Below are positions 25,112 through 36,341 of a stretch of DNA of 64,000 bases, piece after piece (position 1 is the first letter of the stretch; every line of letters starts with the position of its first letter). The notes beneath the pieces are model-generated. The model had not been told where the DNA came from and ran no database searches. It was given only the letters and a program-made list of their open reading frames with translations. Source of the stretch: Mesorhizobium sp. J18 (GTDB lineage: Bacteria; Pseudomonadota; Alphaproteobacteria; Rhizobiales; Rhizobiaceae); the NCBI RefSeq assembly GCF_007829525.1, contig NZ_VLJP01000034.1, forward strand, positions 26,527-90,526. Reading direction: 5' to 3'. A program made the position numbers and the translations under genes.

Positions 25112-25253
25112 GGCTTGGCGCTGAATGGGTTGTCGACTGTCTGGAGGGTTCTCTGCTCCAGGCCTTCAGAGGCGATACGCTACTGTCCATCCGGAGCGTG
25201 GGGAGCGGCAGTTCGCCTTAGCAGCCTACGACAACCTCGGAAAGGAAAGCGAC

Positions 25254-26591
25254 GTGAATATCACCATTTTTGGAACAGGCTATGTGGGCCTTGTCCATGC
25301 TGCCGTCATGGCCGAAGCAGGCCACGAGGTCGTCTGTGTTGATATTGACGCAGACAAAATCGCGCGGCTGAAGCACGGTGAGGTTCCGATCTTCGAGCCG
25401 GGGCTGGAGCGGCTGGTGGCTGACAATCTGGCGGCTGGGCGGCTGGGTTTTACCACGGATGCCGCGGAAGGCATACGCCACGGGCGCATCATCTTCATCG
25501 CGGTCGGCACGCCGCCTGACGATGACGGCTCTGCTGATCTTCGCCATGTGCTCGCCGTTGCGGAGAGCATCGGAGCGCATATGGCCGCACCCGCCATCGT
25601 CGTCAACAAGTCGACCGTGCCCGTGGGCACGGCAGACAGGGTGCGCGCCGTCATCACTGAGCGGCTTGCTCGGCGTGGTCTAGAAAACCTCGTCTTCGAC
25701 GTTGCCTCGAATCCGGAGTTCCTGAAGGAGGGATCGGCCGTCGCCGACTCTATGAAGCCCGACCGCATTCTCATCGGCGTGAGCGAGCCGGGCTCCGAGA
25801 CGGAGAGGCTGCTGCGCGAGATCTACGCTCCCTTCAACCGCAATCACGAGAAGATTATCGTGATGGACCTGCGCAGCGCCGAGCTTGCGAAATATGCCGC
25901 AAACTGCATGCTGGCCACCAAGATAAGCTTTATGAACGAGATGGCGAATCTGGCCGAGCGGCTGGGCGCCGATATCGAGAAGGTGCGGCTCGGAATCGGC
26001 TCTGACCCGCGCATCGGCTATCACTTCATTTATCCCGGGGCCGGCTATGGCGGTTCATGCTTTCCCAAGGATGTGCGTGCACTCATCGCAATGGCGGAGC
26101 GCGAGGATTTTGAGCCGCTGGTGATCGGTGCCGTGGAGGCGCGCAATGAACGTCAGAAACGGCTTCTCTTCGAGAAGATCATGGCTCATTTCAGCGGCGA
26201 GATCGCCGGACGCACCTTCGCCCTGTGGGGCCTTTCCTTCAAGCCCAATACGGACGATATGCGCGAGGCGCCTTCGCGCACGCTGATGGAGGCGTTGTGG
26301 CAGGCGGGTGCACGTGTGCGCGCTTTCGATCCCAAGGCAATGGAAGAATGCCGGCGTATCTATGGTGCCCGGGAGGATCTTGTCTTGTGTTCCTCCCAGG
26401 AGGAGGCGCTGGAAGGAGCAGATGCACTGGTAGTGGTGACGGAGTGGCGTAACTTCCAGGCCCCGGACTTCGCAGAAATCGCCGCGCGGCTCAAGCAGAA
26501 GGTGATCTTCGACGGCCGCAACATTTACGACCCAGCGATCCTGGAGCGCTATGGGCTGAAGGTTGTGGGTATGGGGCGGGCGGTAGGGTAA
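25254..26591 (+). CDS. ugd: UDP-glucose 6-dehydrogenase
   Basis: 445 residues from a GTG at 25254 with GGAAAGGAAAG upstream. Oxidises UDP-glucose to UDP-glucuronate with two NAD+. The N-terminal Rossmann motif is FGTGYVG (residues 6-12), NKSTVPVGT is the central segment, and the catalytic cysteine is C269 in GGSCFPKD. The C-terminal UDP-binding domain contains [18 protein letters not shown]. An in-frame extension to 25125 reads into DNA unlike coding sequence and was rejected. It faces the surface-glycan genes and could supply glucuronic acid to that pathway. Confidence 0.95.
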
Positions 26592-26707: not shown

Positions 26708-29221
26708 TTATGCAGGAACTTTCTGTAACTTTGATAGATAATCTTTCTCAATAATTTTCTGGATCGGTTCCTTATATTCGACACGCGCCACGCTTTTGGC
26801 AACCGTTCTTACCATCAGGCCACTGCGCAATTGCGCATCACGATCCCCGCCGCTCCAAATCCCTGCGGGATGCTGTACATAAACACTCATTATTCTATCA
26901 ATGTAGCCAATGTATCCGAATTTTTCTAGAAAAAAAGCTAATGAAATCTCACTAAATCTGTGCTCAAAAAGAATTTTCGGCAATTTTTTCATTAATTCCG
27001 ATCTAAACATACAACATGAAAAATTTGCTATCAAATTCATCGTCGGATGGTTAAGAAAGTCTTGACCGGTCAATTTATTTTTCTTTATAGAATCTTGCCT
27101 TTCAAGGGTTTTAAAACTTTTGTCTTTTAAATTACAAACATTGATTTTTGAAAAAACCATGGAGCAATCAGGGTTCTCTCGCAGAAAATGCGCTTGCGCA
27201 TTCAATTTCTGATCGTCAATCCAGTAGTCATCTCCTTCCAGAATTGCCACAAACTCACCGGCAGCCTCCTCGAAGGCTCGACGGAAATTAGCGGAAACGC
27301 CCATGTTTACACCTCCGCCAACGCTCCGAATCAAGTTCGGATGGGAGCGACAGTACTTATCTATAATTTCGGGCGTACCATCTATCGAGCCATCATCCGA
27401 GAGGATGATCTCATGGTCAAAATCTCCCTTTTGGGAAAGGGCACTCCGGATGGCTTTTTCGACAAATTTTTCTTGGTTATATGAAAGTATGACTGTTGAT
27501 ATTGTTTTGTTGATATCATGTTTATTAGTAATCTGTATTCTTGATTTAAGAGCGGACTCCTTCCTGCTTATTCTATTTGGATCTTCATTGTCGCTGTAGT
27601 CTAATAAAATATTTGGTATATAACGTGGGGGATAAGACCTCGTATAGCGGAGGATTAGATCCCAGTCGACCAACCGCTTTAGAGATCGGTCGAATCCGCC
27701 CATCTCTTCAAAGCATTTCCTGTGGTGAACAAATACACCTAAGTCGATGAAATTTCCTTGGCGAAGACGCTGGTAGTCGAATATTCCCCCTCCTATCTTG
27801 CCGTCTTCTCTTCTACAGAATTCCGCGTAAAAGGTATATATTTCAGGGTTCTCTTTTATGCTTTGGGAGAACACTTTAAGAAAGTACGGCCTTATTGTGT
27901 TGTCGGAGTCGACATATGCGATCCAATCGAAGCGCGCAGCCATCAAGCCGATATTGCGCGCGGAACAAACTCCGACGGAGGATGGTAACCGTATATATGT
28001 AATCCGTCCTTCCTTTATCGCGTCCCCGTATCGCTCACTAATGAGCGCCTCTGTTCCATCAACAGATCCATCATCTATGATAATAAGTTCAAAATTCCGA
28101 TGCGTCTGTAAGAGTACAGAGTTTACTGCTTTCTCTATGCAGTGCGCTCTGTTGTAAGTGGGCATGATAAGAGAGAAGGAAGCATCTTCAGCGCTCAAAT
28201 AACGGTTAATGGTATCATCTTGGATGGCAAATTCATATAGAGAGGGGTTTGAAGACTTCAATTTTTCTAAAGTAATATCAATCCCATCCAGGTTGCAAGC
28301 CGCCTTTTTTAAAGCCTTGACTTTAATTAAAGGCGATCCTTGATCAAGTAAAAAGCAGGGATAATGCTCTATGCTTAGGGGGCGCCTCTGCCGAGGATTT
28401 TCCATTTCAGGCTGAGTTCGTATTACAGAATCGACCTTAAAGCCTAAATCAGTCAATAATTTTGTTAGCCGAACTTCATAATTTTTAATTACATCTTGGA
28501 CAGTCTTGTGTGCTTTTACAGATAGAAGAAACTCCTCAAACGTTTTGTGCAGAAAAACAGATTTTGAGAAACAAAGGAAATAGCTTTGCAGATGATATTG
28601 AAAAAATTCACTCCCCGTTATCCCCCAAAAGTCCGCACCTCGCTCGGACATCTCTAAAAACATTTTTCCGAAGTTCGAGACTGGTCCAAAGCAGCTATCG
28701 TTGCAAAGAATCAGCTCATCCACTTCCTGAAGAAAACCATTCTCTTTTGCAAAAATATAGCCGCGCTTATATGATCCAAAATCATACTCTCCATGGCGCC
28801 CGCTAATTATGTTAACAGATTGTCTTTGGATTTTCTTTTTTTCATATTCTGATATATCGTTATCTGCTACGAATATTATTCTCTCTGATACGTCTAAGAG
28901 TCCGTCTATATAATATTTTACGTACGGATTTATAATTCCAAATTCATTATAAGATGCAAAAATAACAAGCCTTCTCTTTTGTATAGAAGAATTCTCTATA
29001 TTGTCTGTGATATCTTTGTTTATAGTGGCACCGTTTTGAAAATCCTTGGCCGAGCGGGACCGGTTTAATTTTCTTCCCAGCCAGAGATAGTGCTCTAGAG
29101 GATCCATCCCCAGTGCTTTCACATCCGGATATGTATCAAGATACCATTCGGCATCGAACGGGCCGGAATTGCGGATGGCTTCCAGATCTTCCTTTGATAT
29201 TTCGCCCACCAATGACCCCAC
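26708..29221 (-). CDS. Large glycosyltransferase: WYL-like module, RgpF-like domain and two GT2 domains
   Basis: 837 residues. In order: a short module FDAEWYLDTYPDVKALG...HYLWLG (22-49); a rhamnan-synthesis-F (RgpF)-like domain (about 84-300, with LVIFASYNEFG, DEYDFGSYKRG-like GEYDFGSYKRG and LILCNDSCFGP); a first GT2 domain (about 349-555, with SLIMPTYNRA, IIDDGS, YVDSD and DWDLILRY); a second GT2 domain (about 574-830, with TVILSYNQE, LSDDGSIDGT and EGDDYW). Both GT2 domains keep the nucleotide-sugar Asp motifs, so the protein probably adds several sugars to a surface polymer. The coding DNA is markedly AT-rich except at its 5' end, unlike its neighbours, a sign of transfer. Sugars and acceptor are unknown. 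Confidence 0.88.
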   Translation of the reverse strand: MGSLVGEISKEDLEAIRNSGPFDAEWYLDTYPDVKALGMDPLEHYLWLGRKLNRSRSAKDFQNGATINKDITDNIENSSIQKRRLVIFASYNEFGIINPYVKYYIDGLLDVSERIIFVADNDISEYEKKKIQRQSVNIISGRHGEYDFGSYKRGYIFAKENGFLQEVDELILCNDSCFGPVSNFGKMFLEMSERGADFWGITGSEFFQYHLQSYFLCFSKSVFLHKTFEEFLLSVKAHKTVQDVIKNYEVRLTKLLTDLGFKVDSVIRTQPEMENPRQRRPLSIEHYPCFLLDQGSPLIKVKALKKAACNLDGIDITLEKLKSSNPSLYEFAIQDDTINRYLSAEDASFSLIMPTYNRAHCIEKAVNSVLLQTHRNFELIIIDDGSVDGTEALISERYGDAIKEGRITYIRLPSSVGVCSARNIGLMAARFDWIAYVDSDNTIRPYFLKVFSQSIKENPEIYTFYAEFCRREDGKIGGGIFDYQRLRQGNFIDLGVFVHHRKCFEEMGGFDRSLKRLVDWDLILRYTRSYPPRYIPNILLDYSDNEDPNRISRKESALKSRIQITNKHDINKTISTVILSYNQEKFVEKAIRSALSQKGDFDHEIILSDDGSIDGTPEIIDKYCRSHPNLIRSVGGGVNMGVSANFRRAFEEAAGEFVAILEGDDYWIDDQKLNAQAHFLRENPDCSMVFSKINVCNLKDKSFKTLERQDSIKKNKLTGQDFLNHPTMNLIANFSCCMFRSELMKKLPKILFEHRFSEISLAFFLEKFGYIGYIDRIMSVYVQHPAGIWSGGDRDAQLRSGLMVRTVAKSVARVEYKEPIQKIIEKDYLSKLQKVPA

Positions 29222-29411
29222 TTGAGATTTTCTGACGATACATCAATCCGTGTAGCGATCTAGCTAAAATGATTGAGCGGCAACTTCAACTTTTGAGGCG
29301 GCCGTTGGGATGCCGTCCCTCTCTTGCGCCGAAGAGCACATAGTGCTTGATCGGATCAATGCCGGCCTCTGCCACATCGGTATAGTGCCTGAGATACCAT
29401 TCGGCGTCGAA
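29139..29411. repeat. Near-identical 20-bp direct repeats in two adjacent genes
   Basis: Copies at 29139-29158 and 29392-29411 differ at one base of 20, within a longer similar stretch of about 55 bases. Both encode the FDAEWYL motif, in the same orientation: the first at the start of the large glycosyltransferase, the second near the end of the sulfotransferase. Confidence 0.8.
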
Positions 29412-30998
29412 AAGACCGGAGCGCTGGACAATGGCGATGGCGCGCCGCATGCGCGCCCCTGCCCAGAAGAAAGGATGGCGCCTGTTATCCATCACCGCGG
29501 TGATAGCGCGCCCAAGCTCCGTTGCAGCTTGGCTGGCCACTTGCTCGGTCCGTAGGCGCCCGGCCTCTACCTCTGCCTCGCGGGCGCGCAAGAGGCGGCT
29601 TATTTCAGCGATCTCGTTGAAACGGGTATCGAGCCGAGTGGAAAGGTCGCGGTTGAGGGCTGCAGCCTGCTCCGCCTCCTGGCGGGCAGCCTCCGCTTCT
29701 TGCCGAGCCTGGGTGTGAGCCTCCTCCGCCTTCTGGCGGGCGGCCTCCGCATCGGCCAGCTTCTCACGTGTCTGCTTGAGAGCTTCTGCCGTCTCCTCCG
29801 CCTCGTGGCGGCGCTGTTCAAGTGCACTCTTGGTCTGTTGAAGTTCGGCACGCGTGTCGGCAGCTGCCCGTTCGACTGTCTCAAAGGCCTCCTCCATCTG
29901 CGCTGCAGCTTTGCGCGCCTCGGCAAGTTCGGCCTTATTTTGCTCGAGATCATCTTCTAAGCGACGCGCTCTGCCGATCGCCGCGTGGCCGGCATCGGCA
30001 AGTAGCGCGAAGGCAGGGGTGGCAGCGTCGAATTCGGCAAGGATGGCGTCAAGCGCTGCGTGGTCGGCTGTATCCTCGCCCTTTTCGATCCAGCGGGAGA
30101 GAATGCGGTAGCTGTCGCGCAGCCAGCGGGAAAGCGTCGGATTTTCCACCACGCTTTCCGGTGCTTCCTTGTGGTGTCTGAGCTTGTCTGAGAGGAATGT
30201 CTCGATCTCCGCTATGGCCGTGCTTGACTTGCGCGGCAGCGAAAGGCGGAACTGTTCCTCCGCCCGCTCCACGACACGCGCCCAGGAACGCAGCATGGAG
30301 TCATAGCTTAGGAAGATGCGTGGCAGTCCGCGTGTAGCCACCTCCGCCTCCAGCACATGGCGCAGCCACAGAAGGTGACCGAAGGCGAGCTCGAAGCCGT
30401 TGCGCTTCTGCAACGAGGCGGCAACCTCGAGAGGATTTCGCAGCGGCAGGACGACAAGCGGACGGACGCCGGCCCCGGCCAGCACATCGAGCCAAAACGG
30501 CACCAAACGGCAGATACGCGGATCCTTCAGAACAAAGAGTCGGGAGTTGCCGAACTCCTGCTCGAGAACGCTGAGCGCTTCCTCACGGAAGGTCTGTGCT
30601 TTCGGCGAGCGCAACCAGCCGGGATTGAAGGCCTGCCAGTCGTGCCAGCATGAGCCGGCCGATTCCAACAGTCGGTCATTGAGTTGGCAGATAGGGACAG
30701 ATTCCCAATGGCCTGCTTCGTTCGACTTATTGGCGCCCATGAGATTGGCCGGCAGGTCGCAGCCCAGCAGGCTGAAGATACGTGTCACTGCGCTGGTGCC
30801 CGAGCGATGCATGCCCAGTACAAGCACGCATGTGCGCCCGATCTCGTCCGGAACCAGCATGCTGGCGTCTTCGGATGACACGTCTCCAGGCATTTTCTTC
30901 ATCATGGCCTCTGGTTGCTCATTCCACTCGGGCAAGGCACAGGCGATAGACAACGTCCCGTCGCTGCATGAGTCCGCCGCCTGAAGAACACTTGCCAT
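29286..30998 (-). CDS. Sulfotransferase with coiled coil and C-terminal FDAEWYL module
   Basis: 570 residues. The sulfotransferase domain (about 55-330) carries the PAPS-binding P-loop VLGMHRSGTSAV (60-71) and the 3'-phosphate site PLRNPLEVAASL (185-196). Then comes a highly charged Glu/Ala/Arg coiled coil of about 140 residues (about 345-490), and last a 44-residue module SGLFDAEWYLRHYTDVAEAG... ending with GREGRHPNG-like AREGRHPNG (527-566). The likely job is sulfating or otherwise modifying a surface glycan while tethered by the coiled coil. Starting at Met32/33 (preceded by AGAGG) instead of 30998 is possible. Base composition resembles the core genome, in contrast to the adjacent glycosyltransferase. 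Confidence 0.82.
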   Translation of the reverse strand: MASVLQAADSCSDGTLSIACALPEWNEQPEAMMKKMPGDVSSEDASMLVPDEIGRTCVLVLGMHRSGTSAVTRIFSLLGCDLPANLMGANKSNEAGHWESVPICQLNDRLLESAGSCWHDWQAFNPGWLRSPKAQTFREEALSVLEQEFGNSRLFVLKDPRICRLVPFWLDVLAGAGVRPLVVLPLRNPLEVAASLQKRNGFELAFGHLLWLRHVLEAEVATRGLPRIFLSYDSMLRSWARVVERAEEQFRLSLPRKSSTAIAEIETFLSDKLRHHKEAPESVVENPTLSRWLRDSYRILSRWIEKGEDTADHAALDAILAEFDAATPAFALLADAGHAAIGRARRLEDDLEQNKAELAEARKAAAQMEEAFETVERAAADTRAELQQTKSALEQRRHEAEETAEALKQTREKLADAEAARQKAEEAHTQARQEAEAARQEAEQAAALNRDLSTRLDTRFNEIAEISRLLRAREAEVEAGRLRTEQVASQAATELGRAITAVMDNRRHPFFWAGARMRRAIAIVQRSGLFDAEWYLRHYTDVAEAGIDPIKHYVLFGAREGRHPNGRLKS

Positions 30999-31061: not shown

Positions 31062-31982
31062 CTAGTGCGAGTATTGGATATTGTAGATTTCGGACGGATC
31101 GGCGGACCAGTTAACAAGAGGTTCGCCGATTTTCCGGGCAATGCATGCGCTCAAGAGAAATGTCTTCTGTGTGTCGATCCCTTGGAGGGGGCCGTTGTTT
31201 TTTGACCTCGGAACAATTGAGGCCTCATGATCATAAGCGCTGTCAACGATTTCAAAGCCTGTGAACTTGTTGAATAGCCCACTCCATGCCTCTCGCGAAA
31301 ACCGGAAGAAGTCCCATGGCTCTTCGTGGAGTGGCCATGCTGGGTGCGACTGGATATAGGCGAGACCACCAGTTTTAAGCACCTTGTTAAGCTCATAGGC
31401 TGCAACCCACGGCATGATCAAATGCTCGAAAACGGAAATGGAGAAAGCGAAGTCGAACTGTTCAGAAACGCGGTGTGAAAGCGTGTGTGCATCAGCTACG
31501 AGATCGACATTTGGACCGGCCGAGATATCCATGCCAACGTATTTTGCAATTGTAGGGAACAGATGGCGATAGCTATTGCCTGACCGAGAGCGCGATCCGA
31601 TTTCGATTAGGGAAGCATTTCGCCTTTTTGCGACTTGTTCGAGAAAGCTATTGCGCACCTTAACGAGGCGAGCTTCGACGGAGATTCCAGAGCTTCCCAC
31701 TATATCTCCATCTTCGAACCGAACGCCTATTGTTGAATTGTCGGTGATCACATCTTTGACCACGGCCGCCATGCGGAATCCAGAAAATTCGAAATCCTGA
31801 CCGTGTACTGCAGCTACATCCATTCGGCGAAAACGTGAACACACCTGATCTTGTACCGGGCTGCCGTTTACGACCAACAATGGATTTCTGCCGTCGCACC
31901 AGCCAACGGCAACGATGGCACCATCCAAGACGGTAATCCGATCAACGCTTTTTAGGAGCTTTTTCGGTTGTAAAAGGCGCAT
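31062..31982 (-). CDS. SAM-dependent methyltransferase with N-terminal extra domain
   Basis: 306 residues from the ATG at 31982. Residues 1-110 form a beta-rich domain (VLDGAIVAVGWCDG, VRFEDGDIVG) that I do not recognise; residues about 115-290 are a class I methyltransferase with motif I LIEIGSRSRSG (125-135), an acidic end of strand 2 in VGMDIS (149-154) and SISVFEHLIMPW (181-192), the Methyltransf_11-type post-motif. The domain also contains HPAWPLHEEPWDFFRFSREAW, seen in methyltransferases of surface-glycan clusters. It lies between the two sulfotransferase genes' neighbourhoods and points the same way, suggesting a capping or decorating O-methylation. A longer reading to 32054 was rejected because it enters the IS66 end. 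Confidence 0.82.
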   Translation of the reverse strand: MRLLQPKKLLKSVDRITVLDGAIVAVGWCDGRNPLLVVNGSPVQDQVCSRFRRMDVAAVHGQDFEFSGFRMAAVVKDVITDNSTIGVRFEDGDIVGSSGISVEARLVKVRNSFLEQVAKRRNASLIEIGSRSRSGNSYRHLFPTIAKYVGMDISAGPNVDLVADAHTLSHRVSEQFDFAFSISVFEHLIMPWVAAYELNKVLKTGGLAYIQSHPAWPLHEEPWDFFRFSREAWSGLFNKFTGFEIVDSAYDHEASIVPRSKNNGPLQGIDTQKTFLLSACIARKIGEPLVNWSADPSEIYNIQYSH

Positions 31983-32060
31983 CGGTTGTCTCCATTTGGG
32001 GCAACTTAAAACCACACCAAGGCCCGCCCCGCAATCACCATGCGATCGGTACAATGTAGC

Positions 32061-32241
32061 GTAAGCGGTGTTCTCAGGCCACGGCCTTGATCTCGGGAGC
32101 GGCGATGTAGGTCCAGGGCAGGAGATCGTCGAGCTGGCTGTTTGGGTGGCCGTTGACGATTCTGGTGGGCACGTCGGCGAGGTAACCGAGCGGCTCGACG
32201 TTGTTCATGGTCTGCTTCCGGCTAAGTGCCCTCGAATCGGG
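32061..32241 (-). pseudogene. IS66-family transposase (TnpC) C-terminal relic
   Basis: On the minus strand a frame ending at 32074 reads ALSRK, then NNVEPLGYLADV, RIVNGHP and LDDLLPWTYI, the conserved C-terminus of IS66 TnpC. About 30 residues expected between ALSRK and NNVEP are missing, so it carries an internal deletion, and the frame is closed by a stop upstream at 32242-32244. GTAAGCGGTGTTC at 32061 resembles an IS66 terminal repeat. Confidence 0.8.
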
Positions 32242-32270
32242 TTAGAGTTTTCCGCACCATTTTCTTGGCT

Positions 32271-32484
32271 GGGAAACGCATTGATAACGCCTTCATCGAA
32301 GCGTTCAATACCCGGCTGCGGGCGGAATGTTTGAACGCTCACGGGTTCTTGAGCCTAACGGATGCGGCGGAAAAGTTGGAGGTTTGGCGCAGAGACTAAC
32401 GAGCAACAGCCAGGCGGCGCGATCGGGAACAAGGTCCCCGCAGCGTTCATGAAATCCGCACACGCAGCCAGCCCGTGTTGCTGA
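32271..32484 (+). pseudogene. IS3-family transposase (OrfB) C-terminal relic with frameshift
   Basis: Plus-strand frame GKRIDNAFIEAFNTRLRAEC continues through LNAHGFLSLTDAAEKLEVWRRD to a stop at 32397. The remaining part, NEQQPGGAIGNKVPAAF..., is found from 32398 in another frame: two bases are missing where the family has a Tyr codon after WRRD. DNAFIE is the catalytic-Glu region of IS3-type DDE transposases. The 5' two thirds of the gene are absent. No intact element ends can be delimited. Confidence 0.82.
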
Positions 32485-32659: not shown

Positions 32660-33478
32660 TCAACCGCGATCCAATATTGAGGTGTTAGCGTAACGTTTCT
32701 TCGCTTCTTCATAAAGGGCGACATCCAGTAAGTTCATTTCTCGGATGCGCTCTTTATGATTATCATTCAGCTTCAGAAGGCCAGATTTGGACACATTCGC
32801 TCGCCTGGTGGGCGGTATTGAGAGTCCGAGCTTGGCAAGTTTGAGAGAAATTTCATCAAGATTTTCGGCTAAGCCAAGCACATCGATCGTCTCTAACGCA
32901 GCTATTGCAGATTTAAGTCTGGCTTGCTCATTACCAATGGGGCCGTAGAGCAGATGGTGGTGCAGTTGGTTGATGTTGCTTGGGTGCATTAAGCCTACAT
33001 CCCCGCTGAGGTATCTAGTCATTGCGTTTGTGGCGACGCCACGTGTGATACCCTTACTTAAATCCTCCAAAATCGCTTCTGCGGTGTGGCCATTATATTG
33101 GATGTTGTGTTTCAGGTTTGAAATCACCCGGCTGACGGGCTCACGTAGTACGGCAATGGTGATTGGGTTTGTCAAAAGCTTGCGCACAGAAAGGTGGTAG
33201 TGACCGCGCAGCAATCGAACAGATGACCTCTGACGGACAACGTTCTCCATGACAAGCGCAATGTCGGGATAGTGCCCCCCAGACCGGGCCATCATGTACG
33301 CGTCGGGTATAATTTCATGTGGGCGTACGGATGCCTCTAGTGCCAGCCTAAGCGAAGTTCCGCCGGTCTTCGGCAGATGACAGAAAAATATCGGCCTATC
33401 CACTGTATTTAATTGCCTTCTGTTTACCTTGATGCTGCTTCGAGAATCCGAATAGTATGTGGCGCTTTCGCCTAACAT
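32660..33478 (-). CDS. Sulfotransferase family protein
   Basis: 272 residues. The PAPS-binding loop is FCHLPKTGGTSLR (32-44), the variant K-T-G-G-T-S of the Sulfotransfer_2 group; the 3'-phosphate site is VLREPVSRVISNLKHN (about 110-125). Such enzymes sulfate carbohydrates, including lipo-oligosaccharides and polysaccharides. The C-terminal half is helical and lysine-rich. Composition is intermediate between core and AT-rich DNA. It stands between transposase relics and the double-GT2 gene, on the same strand as both other glycan-modifying genes. Confidence 0.82.
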   Translation of the reverse strand: MLGESATYYSDSRSSIKVNRRQLNTVDRPIFFCHLPKTGGTSLRLALEASVRPHEIIPDAYMMARSGGHYPDIALVMENVVRQRSSVRLLRGHYHLSVRKLLTNPITIAVLREPVSRVISNLKHNIQYNGHTAEAILEDLSKGITRGVATNAMTRYLSGDVGLMHPSNINQLHHHLLYGPIGNEQARLKSAIAALETIDVLGLAENLDEISLKLAKLGLSIPPTRRANVSKSGLLKLNDNHKERIREMNLLDVALYEEAKKRYANTSILDRG

Positions 33479-33767: not shown

Positions 33768-36011
33768 CTAAACTTCTCGTGCAGAATCCGACCTTAGAGA
33801 GAAGTCTTCAGCAGTTCGGGTAAGGTTCACATTATAGAAGCGGTCATTCTTGAGTTTGCTTCCCCACACCATTTCCATGTGGGAGATTTCGCTGGAAAAT
33901 CGCGCGATGTGTTCTGCAGCATGATCACTCCCTCTTGAAGCCGATTCAAAATGGTAAAGCTCTGCATATGGCGTGTAGATATTTCTATATCCGCAAGAGT
34001 CCAGCTTCAGGCAGAGATCAACGTCATTGAATGCCACCTTCAACCGCTCTTGATCGAATCCCCCGACCTCGAAGAATTTATGCTTTTCTACTACCATACA
34101 TGCGGCAGTTACCGCGGTTATCTGATGGGTAACATTTAACCGCGCGTGGTAACCTTCGGCATTGGGATCGAAGAAACGGAAGGCATGCCCCGCTACACCG
34201 GTAATTCCGCATATAACACCGGCATGCTGAACGCGACCGTCCTCGTATAGTAACTTTGCTCCTACTGCGCCGTTTTGCTTCTGGACCGCGAGACTCACCA
34301 TTTCTCGGAGCCAATCAGGGTGCTTAACCCCGGTGTCGTTGTTGAGGAAGCACAAAACTTCGCCCGTCGCAAGTTCTGCCGCGGTATTGTTGATCGCTGA
34401 GAAATTAAACTCACCAGAAAACGATAATATTCTTATGTTTGAATTCTTTCCTATATTCCTAAAAAATTCTTCTGTTTCCGGAAGAGCACTGTCATTATCC
34501 ATGATAATTATTTCAAAATTTTGATAATCTGTATTATATAAAATTCCACTAACACATCTCTTCAATAAATCAACTCTATCGCGCGTTGGTATTATTATAC
34601 TTACTTTCGGTGCGGGATTGGGAAGATCATATATAATTCTATTTCGGCCAAAATATCCCTCGGCAACTCGCGCAAGAGTTCCCTTTGACGATAGGTATTC
34701 TTGCACGGCGCGCTGTCTGGCGCTGATGGCTTTGCGAAGGGCCTTGTCAGAATATGATCCTGAGCCCTCGTAGGCACGCCAATGGTAAAGTACCTTTGGA
34801 ATGTGGAGAATCCGGTCTGGACTGGTTCTTGCTACTATCCGCAGTCCGAGATCATGATCCTGGCTCCCTTCGAAGCCTGCCCTAAGTCCCCCGACCTCGC
34901 GGAAGAGTGAAGCTCGATACACTGCTAGATGATTAATATAGTTATGAGCAAGGAACATTTCCTCATTCCAGTCAGGCTTGAAATGAGGCCCCACCCGTCG
35001 TCCATCAGGATCTAGTTTGTCTTCGTCGGAATAGACAAAATCCACGAAGGGATGGTCACTGATTGCAAGCGCGACTTCTGCCAGTGCATTTGCTGGCATG
35101 ACGTCGTCATGGTCCATCAGCGCAATCCAGTCACCGGTAGCCAACTCTGCCGCAGAATTAGTGCTTAAAGAGATATGCCCATTTTCCTCGCGGAATACGA
35201 CCTTGATGCGGCGGTCATTCTTCAGCCACCGCTCCAGGACCGGGCGGACATGAGGCTCCGTCGAACAGTCGTCGGCAATGCACAGTTCCCAATTCGGGTA
35301 GATTTGGCCGACCACGGAGGCGATCGCCTCCTCGAGCAGTTTTGCCGGCGTGTTGTAGACCGGCATGACTACGCTGATCAGCGGTTTCTCATCGAGCGCA
35401 GCGACCGCAGCGGCGACCGCCTCCGTATCGCGCGTGGGATCGAAATCGTGGCGCTTGATCCAATCGGCATAGGTTACTGCGCCGCCGGTTTGCACATTCT
35501 CGCGAAGCTGGAGGAAATACGGGCGGCGCAGCGCGTCGAGAAAGGTCGGCAGGCGGCGAATGAAGCCTCGTGGATCGTGGCGCAGCACCCTGAGTCCCTG
35601 CCAGCCAAGGGCGAGCGCGACTTCCGGAGCCGAGAGCCGGCGCATGCGAAAGGAATTGAGCTTGAAGGAACAGGCGGTGTTGGCTGGGTCCAGCCGTACG
35701 ATCGTGGCGGGAAAGGGGAGTTTGATGTCCGCCAAAAAGCGGCTGCTTCCCTGCCGCTTCAGACGGGTGGAGAAGACCTCGTTGAAGCCGCCGCCGAAAT
35801 CGAAGAAGACTTGCGGGCGGATTTCGCTCGCGATTTCCATCTCGAGTTCGATACGGTGCCAGCCGGTTGGCAGTGCGCTTTCAGGCTTGAAGATGATCTG
35901 TGGGACTTTGTTGAGCGCTTTGAGGTCAAGGGTTTCAAACGTCTCGCCGGTGGCTCTTACATTGACAAATTCCCTGGAGACGCTCTCGTCCAGAAACTCG
36001 ATCTGAGCCAT
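33768..36011 (-). CDS. Glycosyltransferase with two GT2 domains and N-terminal beta domain
   Basis: 747 residues from the ATG at 36011, preceded by GAGG; an upstream ATG at 36164 would add 51 residues without a clear binding site. Residues 1-130 are beta-rich (a putative sugar- or lipid-binding domain). GT2 domain 1 (about 212-405) has ISVVMPVYN, ADDCS, MDHDD and SDEDK; GT2 domain 2 (about 470-690) has SIIIPTRDR, MDND, FLNNDT and FNDVDLCLK. The layout is that of large rhizobial glycosyltransferases that add alternating sugars. The 3' part of the gene (about 33768-34680) is visibly AT-richer than the 5' part, coinciding with GT2 domain 2. Confidence 0.88.
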   Translation of the reverse strand: MAQIEFLDESVSREFVNVRATGETFETLDLKALNKVPQIIFKPESALPTGWHRIELEMEIASEIRPQVFFDFGGGFNEVFSTRLKRQGSSRFLADIKLPFPATIVRLDPANTACSFKLNSFRMRRLSAPEVALALGWQGLRVLRHDPRGFIRRLPTFLDALRRPYFLQLRENVQTGGAVTYADWIKRHDFDPTRDTEAVAAAVAALDEKPLISVVMPVYNTPAKLLEEAIASVVGQIYPNWELCIADDCSTEPHVRPVLERWLKNDRRIKVVFREENGHISLSTNSAAELATGDWIALMDHDDVMPANALAEVALAISDHPFVDFVYSDEDKLDPDGRRVGPHFKPDWNEEMFLAHNYINHLAVYRASLFREVGGLRAGFEGSQDHDLGLRIVARTSPDRILHIPKVLYHWRAYEGSGSYSDKALRKAISARQRAVQEYLSSKGTLARVAEGYFGRNRIIYDLPNPAPKVSIIIPTRDRVDLLKRCVSGILYNTDYQNFEIIIMDNDSALPETEEFFRNIGKNSNIRILSFSGEFNFSAINNTAAELATGEVLCFLNNDTGVKHPDWLREMVSLAVQKQNGAVGAKLLYEDGRVQHAGVICGITGVAGHAFRFFDPNAEGYHARLNVTHQITAVTAACMVVEKHKFFEVGGFDQERLKVAFNDVDLCLKLDSCGYRNIYTPYAELYHFESASRGSDHAAEHIARFSSEISHMEMVWGSKLKNDRFYNVNLTRTAEDFSLRSDSAREV

Positions 36012-36341
36012 GAATCCTCGTGCAGTTCGCCATGATGCCCCCACCATCGCGCTAACGCGGCGCGCAAATCCTTTGCGCCGGACCGTGATTATATCGGGAA
36101 GGATGGGACTGCAACCGAGAGCCTTATGTGGCTGGGGTTCTTCCTTCTGAGTTGCGTATTCCAATTGACTTTTTCCAATATGTCCAAGGCATCCGGCAGA
36201 AATCCAACTTTCGATCCTGCTTCACCCTGACAGCACGGCTTTTGACGGCCGATCCGGGATTACCGATAGACCAACGCCGGAGTGAGCACGGAAACCACCC
36301 TGGGCCGGTTCCATTTGTGGCCGATGAGAAACGATGAGTGC
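36012..36341. other. 330-bp gap upstream of the glycosyltransferase
   Basis: No convincing gene or hairpin found. It should contain the promoter of the leftward glycosyltransferase. If that gene starts at 36164 the gap shrinks to 177 bp. Confidence 0.5.

Follow-up and report, generated by a model that had tools for sequence, protein, structure and literature searches.

Why should one short module end a protein and also begin the product of the adjoining gene? In the window analysed here, a 64,000-nucleotide stretch of a Mesorhizobium sp. J18 contig, a module of ~35 residues forms the C-terminal end of a 570-aa protein (hereafter T) and the N-terminal start of an 837-aa protein (hereafter G), both encoded on the minus strand. 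The T copy spans residues 530–564 (29307..29411, minus strand, FDAEWYLRHYTDVAEAGIDPIKHYVLFGAREGRHP), stops six residues short of the C-terminus and is modelled by AlphaFold2 (AF2) with a pLDDT of about 85–96, while the G copy spans residues 22–55 (29057..29158, minus strand, FDAEWYLDTYPDVKALGMDPLEHYLWLGRKLNRS), bearing out the shared module reported by the first-pass annotation. With the 45-aa T end as query against its own genome, the G copy was matched at E = 2.8e-8 and a third protein twice, at E = 5.9e-7 and 0.007, making four copies across three proteins; comparison of their sequences identifies the relationship of the T and G copies as old protein homology, far beyond chance. The third protein (1063 aa, G000:C57:71283-71504) carries two N-terminal modules, a GT2 and a group 1 glycosyltransferase (GT) domain, and no T protein was found among the module-bearing ORFs beside it. 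Our preferred answer, to which sequence patterns and analogy lead us to assign a probability of roughly 0.6, is that the T-end and G-start modules form a docking joint between a coiled-coil terminator or ruler and its polymerase.

The T gene (29286..30998, minus strand) was interpreted from its ORF, AF2 model, fold search and relatives as encoding a sulfotransferase-fold head, a coiled coil, a basic helix and the module. Its head (residues 54–302; 30093..30839, minus strand), an alpha/beta domain in the AF2 model, was placed closest to tyrosylprotein sulfotransferase 1 by VIA-align (Z 15.4, rmsd 3.9 over 210 residues), and all 50 matches listed were sulfotransferases (Z 9.5–15.4). The sequence contains a GMHRSGTS PAPS loop (5'-phosphosulfate), KDPR and the 3'-phosphate motif RNPxEVAxSL, and in an alignment of 25 T-head relatives the PAPS-type motifs (HRSG.S, KDPR, R.P and S) were conserved in most. 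Fold and PAPS-loop type motif are thus common to the head and to tyrosylprotein and other PAPS-dependent sulfotransferases, but identity to these is 9–18% and the T head is joined to a coil and a repeat. Against Pfam Sulfotransfer_3 (PF13469, gathering score 27 bits) window T scored 11.7 bits and the best relative tested (L119) 25.3 bits, both below the cut-off. Judged from its predicted structure, the head is a sulfotransferase fold, and PAPS supply for the predicted enzyme is plausible because an APS kinase gene is present in the genome. The coiled coil (residues 310–502; 29493..30071, minus strand) was assigned from long AF2 helices, SMC-type NCBIfam matches and a composition scan, and is followed by an AF2-modelled helix (residues 510–527; 29418..29471, minus strand), which lies in a basic segment preceding the module and may contact the membrane. 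The 35 residues ahead of the module have a mean net charge of +4.3 across 40 T proteins; the window helix, with a hydrophobic moment of 0.52 against 0.76 for WbdD, is not strongly amphipathic. We propose that T is a chain terminator or modifier and a ruler. One sulfotransferase-type T head (L077:6174-8150) has lost the HRSGTS loop while the protein keeps coil and module, as if it acted as no more than a scaffold.

The AT-rich G gene (26708..29221, minus strand, 41% GC) encodes the module followed by an RgpF (rhamnan synthesis protein F) region (residues 115–306; 28304..28879, minus strand; PF05045, E = 3.9e-32) and two GT2 domains (residues 350–465; 27827..28174, minus strand; PF00535; and residues 577–714; 27080..27493, minus strand; PF10111). 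The left border of the cluster is a nucleotide-sugar dehydrogenase of UDP-glucose dehydrogenase type (25125..26591, plus strand), a family named from its translated sequence. Beyond T lie a SAM methyltransferase (31062..32054, minus strand; PF08241), a second, separate sulfotransferase (Sulfotransfer_2; 32660..33478, minus strand; PF03567) and a double GT2 protein (33768..36164, minus strand; PF00535 twice), the last two without any module match. In the gap between methyltransferase and second sulfotransferase (32080-32400), the sequence resembles by eye what is left of the C-termini of an IS66-type (minus strand) and an IS3-type (plus strand) transposase, which suggests that insertion elements assembled or disturbed the cluster. 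We found no polysaccharide exporter beside the cluster and no wzm/wzt in the window, and the genome lacks Wzt_C; the contig does encode an ABC-2 pair at another place, but by eye this is of the generic YadH/YadG type, and we discounted it as the exporter.

The profile built here comprises 389 module copies from 156 ORFs in 95 sequences, in which successive copies most commonly lie exactly 38 residues apart (157 pairs), with the consensus FDADWYLERYPDVAAAGVDPLLHYLRHGAREGRDP and conserved aromatic and His residues (F, WY, HY). A three-module array was folded by AF2 into one compact solenoid (mean pLDDT 96.5, pTM 0.88), its predicted unit being three short helices, with a bridging strand joining successive units. 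Profile and fold searches found no Pfam, NCBIfam, PHROG or PDB family to which the module belongs: neither window copy matched Pfam, no Pfam or NCBIfam family was matched by more than two of 27 module arrays, and neither the PDB sequence and profile search (best 4bwr, E = 0.17) nor Foldseek of the array against the PDB (best E = 6.2) gave a significant match. The seven-repeat protein L030 exceeded the DUF7669 cut-off overall with no single stretch passing, and no A5 array matched that family. Sel1-like repeats are alike in being helical repeats of similar period with WY-type positions, the 4bwr match being non-significant, but the module differs in its three short helices and bridging strand. 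A literature search with the motif string returned no match. Sequence and model together thus identify a widespread, undescribed 38-residue helical repeat of glycan-assembly enzymes, encountered in bacteria, in an archaeal bin and, by fold, in giant viruses.

Of 192 good-quality genomes in the order Rhizobiales, 44 carry the module, as do 29 of the 96 genera. Matches in 97 plasmid records fell on glycosyltransferases, methyltransferases, rhamnan synthesis proteins, one sulfotransferase, WbsX-like proteins, a few secreted proteins and M10 metallopeptidase or Ig-like proteins. The first-pass annotation had named two things that would speak against it, absence of the module from other GT2 and sulfotransferase proteins and its being an ordinary part of a large known domain; neither was seen, since the module is frequent on GTs and sulfotransferase-headed proteins and, by Pfam, NCBIfam, genome and plasmid searches, lies outside any larger known domain. 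In the order sample, which was not picked for T, most modules form arrays at the N-terminus of GTs that have no T beside them, and the longest array on GTs lacking a T partner has 16 copies (L193). The role of the module must therefore be wider than docking to T. This sample is less biased than our pattern scan of genome contigs, for which the module-wide alignment (A1) was too diverse and a narrower T-type alignment, which enriches for T proteins, was therefore used.

A phage origin of the module was rejected, there being no convincing phage match and no viral contig in which a relative could be confirmed. In a BFVD fold search against predicted viral proteins, the best matches were enzymes of giant viruses, among them glycosyltransferases and an FkbM methyltransferase (E down to 4.7e-4); stretches in proteins of Hyperionvirus, Fadolivirus and Harvfovirus, a sugar reductase included, fit the repeat fold, with single units at 1.4–1.6 A rmsd and 23–32% identity. 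Two adjoining ORFs of an archaeal Methanosphaera bin (L146), for which a binning error is possible, carry eight and six modules at irregular spacing.

The pattern scan yielded 80 loci from many phyla. We defined T as a coiled-coil protein ending in the module, which gave 40 proteins by rule and four borderline cases in 38 loci, coiled coils being called by a simple composition rule of our own that has AF2 backing for the window protein only. In 32 of the 38 T loci, the following module-bearing gene on the same strand starts with the module, at a median of 164 nt from the T stop, and these G genes are of glycosyltransferase type, with GT2, GT4, RgpF, WbsX and WsaF bodies. The six exceptions comprise one contig that stops about 1 kb downstream of T (L076), one locus where a transposase gene adjoins T (L040), and L031, L085, L088 and L121. 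Nine further proteins are single-chain fusions of head, coiled coil, modules and GT domains (WbsX-GT4-GT2 in L125, for example), with one to three modules and, once, 13. A Wzm-type permease is encoded in 11 of 47 T or fusion loci.

Across these loci the sequences define a recurrent T architecture of catalytic head, coiled coil, basic segment and repeat, in which the head, sulfotransferase or SAM methyltransferase, is by the same comparison interchangeable on one type of arm and module. The window sulfotransferase family accounts for 26 distinct proteins (four of them fusions) and the main class of SAM methyltransferases for seven, besides small groups and about a dozen headless coil-and-module proteins; coiled coils in the sulfotransferase-headed T proteins span about 76 to 830 aa. 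A P[NSH] linker following the last R is present in 18 of 27 single-module T proteins, against none of 13 multi-module T proteins in their last module and one of 27 G blocks, so that the single-module T protein ends as if another unit were to follow. Headless coil-and-module ORFs of about 177–295 aa sit directly ahead of a module-GT gene in L127-L131, L135 and L094, and in Sphingobium one sits between a long T gene and G; they are possibly a second arm or a spacer subunit.

Comparison with close relatives places a break at the end of the G module. The closest relative of window T is in Chelativorans intermedius (L073), the two heads being 85% identical, and DNA homology between these loci runs through T, the spacer (29222..29285, crossed by the blastn alignment) and the first ~49 G codons before stopping at ~29076, inside the module. 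The N-terminal ends of the two G proteins share 81% identity across 53 aa, and the G bodies are not alignable. We set the breakpoint zone at the end of the module (29045..29076, minus strand) from the blastn end at 29076, the blastp end at residue 59 and a drop in GC3, which is 0.50–0.60 in the first 56 codons of G, then 0.38 and then 0.23; this drop is weak evidence alone, because 5.6% of other 60-codon windows reach the GC3 value of the first 60 G codons. The same arrangement recurs in the pair L089/L099, with T 71% and the module block 66% identical and G bodies not alignable, and 208 G–G pairs, which are not independent of one another, have a module block in common with no alignable body, their alignments stopping at a median of 2 aa from the end of the block. 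Homology of T, spacer and module followed by unrelated bodies indicates that the module was retained while the enzyme was exchanged; on these alignments, recombination acts at the module and between different GT genes, the downstream module staying in place while the G body changes.

This exchange differs from the one first suggested for the locus, in which unequal recombination between the two copies would swap enzyme tails or delete a gene. That suggestion drew on two 20-nt tracts, TTCGA[T/C]GCCGAATGGTATCT, which are present in the T and G copies with one mismatch, as claimed. Over their whole length, however, the copies are identical at 75 of 144 aligned nt (52%) and match at 20 of 48 third codon positions, so they are no recent DNA duplication, and at least five of six identical codons in the tract are expected at P = 0.11 given the residues and the codon usage of both genes. 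Identity of the last T module to the first G module is 0.448 within loci and 0.448 between loci (permutation P = 0.31), and consensus endings differ by position, EGRxP in T modules and LGRxP in first G modules. Unequal recombination is therefore not supported, since what is exchanged in the loci compared is the G body, and the partners are different GT genes; we consider it very improbable, and recent duplication or gene conversion between the copies is rejected on the same DNA identity, codon-match probability and within-locus identity. The distinct endings, each conserved, also weigh against the idea of an evolutionary scar, an ancestral head–coil–repeat–GT chain having split inside its repeat array with the ends kept as structural caps. 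Nine single-chain forms do exist and their module numbers resemble the sums of split pairs, but a scar would leave unexplained why the module is retained when unrelated GT bodies replace one another, and we think this origin improbable.

A stronger contender is that the module binds a glycan, a lipid carrier or the membrane, so that both enzymes sit on the same acceptor with no mutual contact. In its favour are the conserved aromatic and His residues and the basic segment ahead of the module in T proteins, and a general ligand is suggested both by the arrays of up to 16 copies on GTs that lack a T partner and by modules on methyltransferases and on M10 metallopeptidase or Ig-like proteins encoded by plasmids. 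Ligand binding alone, however, does not explain the T-then-G order, the natural fusions or the way in which the G module block stays with T during a change of body, and we judge it possible but unlikely as the whole account. A docking tag for both enzymes, which the first-pass annotation had offered alongside a lipid- or sugar-binding one, best explains the adjacency of T and G, the natural fusions and the module kept as GT bodies change, as far as these sequence patterns reach.

If docking is correct, the module would be the joint of a two-protein assembly line. T supplies a sulfotransferase-fold head on a coiled-coil arm ending in a basic helix and one repeat, and G begins with one repeat followed by its polymer-building RgpF, GT2 and GT2 domains. 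The two repeats would stack end to end in trans, like tandem repeats in cis, thereby holding the sulfotransferase one coiled-coil length from the polymerase, where it could modify the chain or cap it once a set length is reached. Sequence and model show the architecture, the sulfotransferase fold, the order of T and G in many taxa, the natural fusions and the exchange of G bodies at the module end; that T binds G, measures the chain and sulfates its end is what we infer. More tentatively, and with less than even confidence, we suggest that the solenoid repeat is a plug and socket: its split halves would stack in trans and so join terminator heads, carried on coiled-coil rulers, to polymerases, both partners being interchangeable and the polymerases swapped by recombination at the plug end. 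In this reading glycosylation enzymes in bacteria, archaea and giant viruses would all use the repeat, and sulfate would be a chain-terminating group. How a terminator finds its polymerase and measures the chain has been worked out for a few O antigens of enterobacteria; were the joint conserved and exchangeable, this coupling would become testable in many bacteria, including E. coli with group 3 capsules, the diversification of serotypes by polymerase swaps with length control kept would be explained, and glycan engineering would gain a natural coupling tag. The module also names a domain family missing from Pfam and NCBIfam.

Among known systems, the order of parts in T is that of WbdD in the WbdD-WbdA pairs of E. 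coli O8/O9/O9a and K. pneumoniae O3/O5, which make ABC transporter-dependent O antigens. In WbdD of E. coli O9a, as described, the catalytic head is followed by a coiled coil acting as ruler, a helix that associates with the membrane and, at the C-terminus, a site recruiting the polymerase (PMC11231755, PMC3482155); the C-terminal region of WbdD is proposed to contact the polymerase, whose gene adjoins (wbdD-wbdA, E. coli HS). The T head has a sulfotransferase fold whereas that of WbdD is a methyltransferase-kinase, and the window cluster, unlike the WbdD-WbdA systems, is without wzm/wzt. Our module HMM matched neither WbdD nor WbdA when run on those of E. coli HS, which excludes identity of the two joints; T-G is thus best read, by analogy, as a functional counterpart of WbdD-WbdA with a different joint and not as a member of that system. 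WbbB (K. pneumoniae O12) and ORF6-O7 are described as single chains that combine a terminator, a coiled coil and GT modules (PMC11231755), and in this they resemble our nine fusions; compared by description only, the portions of the published account that bear on them give no FDxxWYL repeat between coil and GT. We found no literature joining sulfotransferase, coiled coil, glycosyltransferase, O-antigen and chain length.

The same kind of T is encoded in group 3 (kps) capsule clusters of E. coli, where it consists of a methyltransferase head, a coil and two modules, G starts with one or two modules, and an ABC exporter adjoins; head and exporter distinguish them from the window. One such T-G pair is carried over 80% of its length by 16 of 5,426 complete genomes. 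The parts of the published descriptions of these capsules that cover the genes concerned do not name the repeat or its copy on the neighbouring GT, although variable coiled-coil length in the putative methyltransferase has already been noted (PMC13171606). Hong et al. 2023 report that substitutions between the methyltransferase alleles of two clusters lie mostly in the last 263 bp of the gene (PMC10433991), a stretch that corresponds to the module block (modules from residue 737 of 816). The T protein of E. coli GN25 shares 66% identity along its length with the L042 one, but the G body in GN25 is of WbsX type. The methyltransferase-headed T proteins of L042, L154, L159 and L160, on E. coli plasmids and one chromosome, are 99–100% identical at aligned residues and are set apart by a 96-aa coil indel. 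E. coli T alleles that are identical across 445 aligned coil residues differ by this in-frame 96-aa indel, and so offer a natural length series on which the proposed ruler could be tested.
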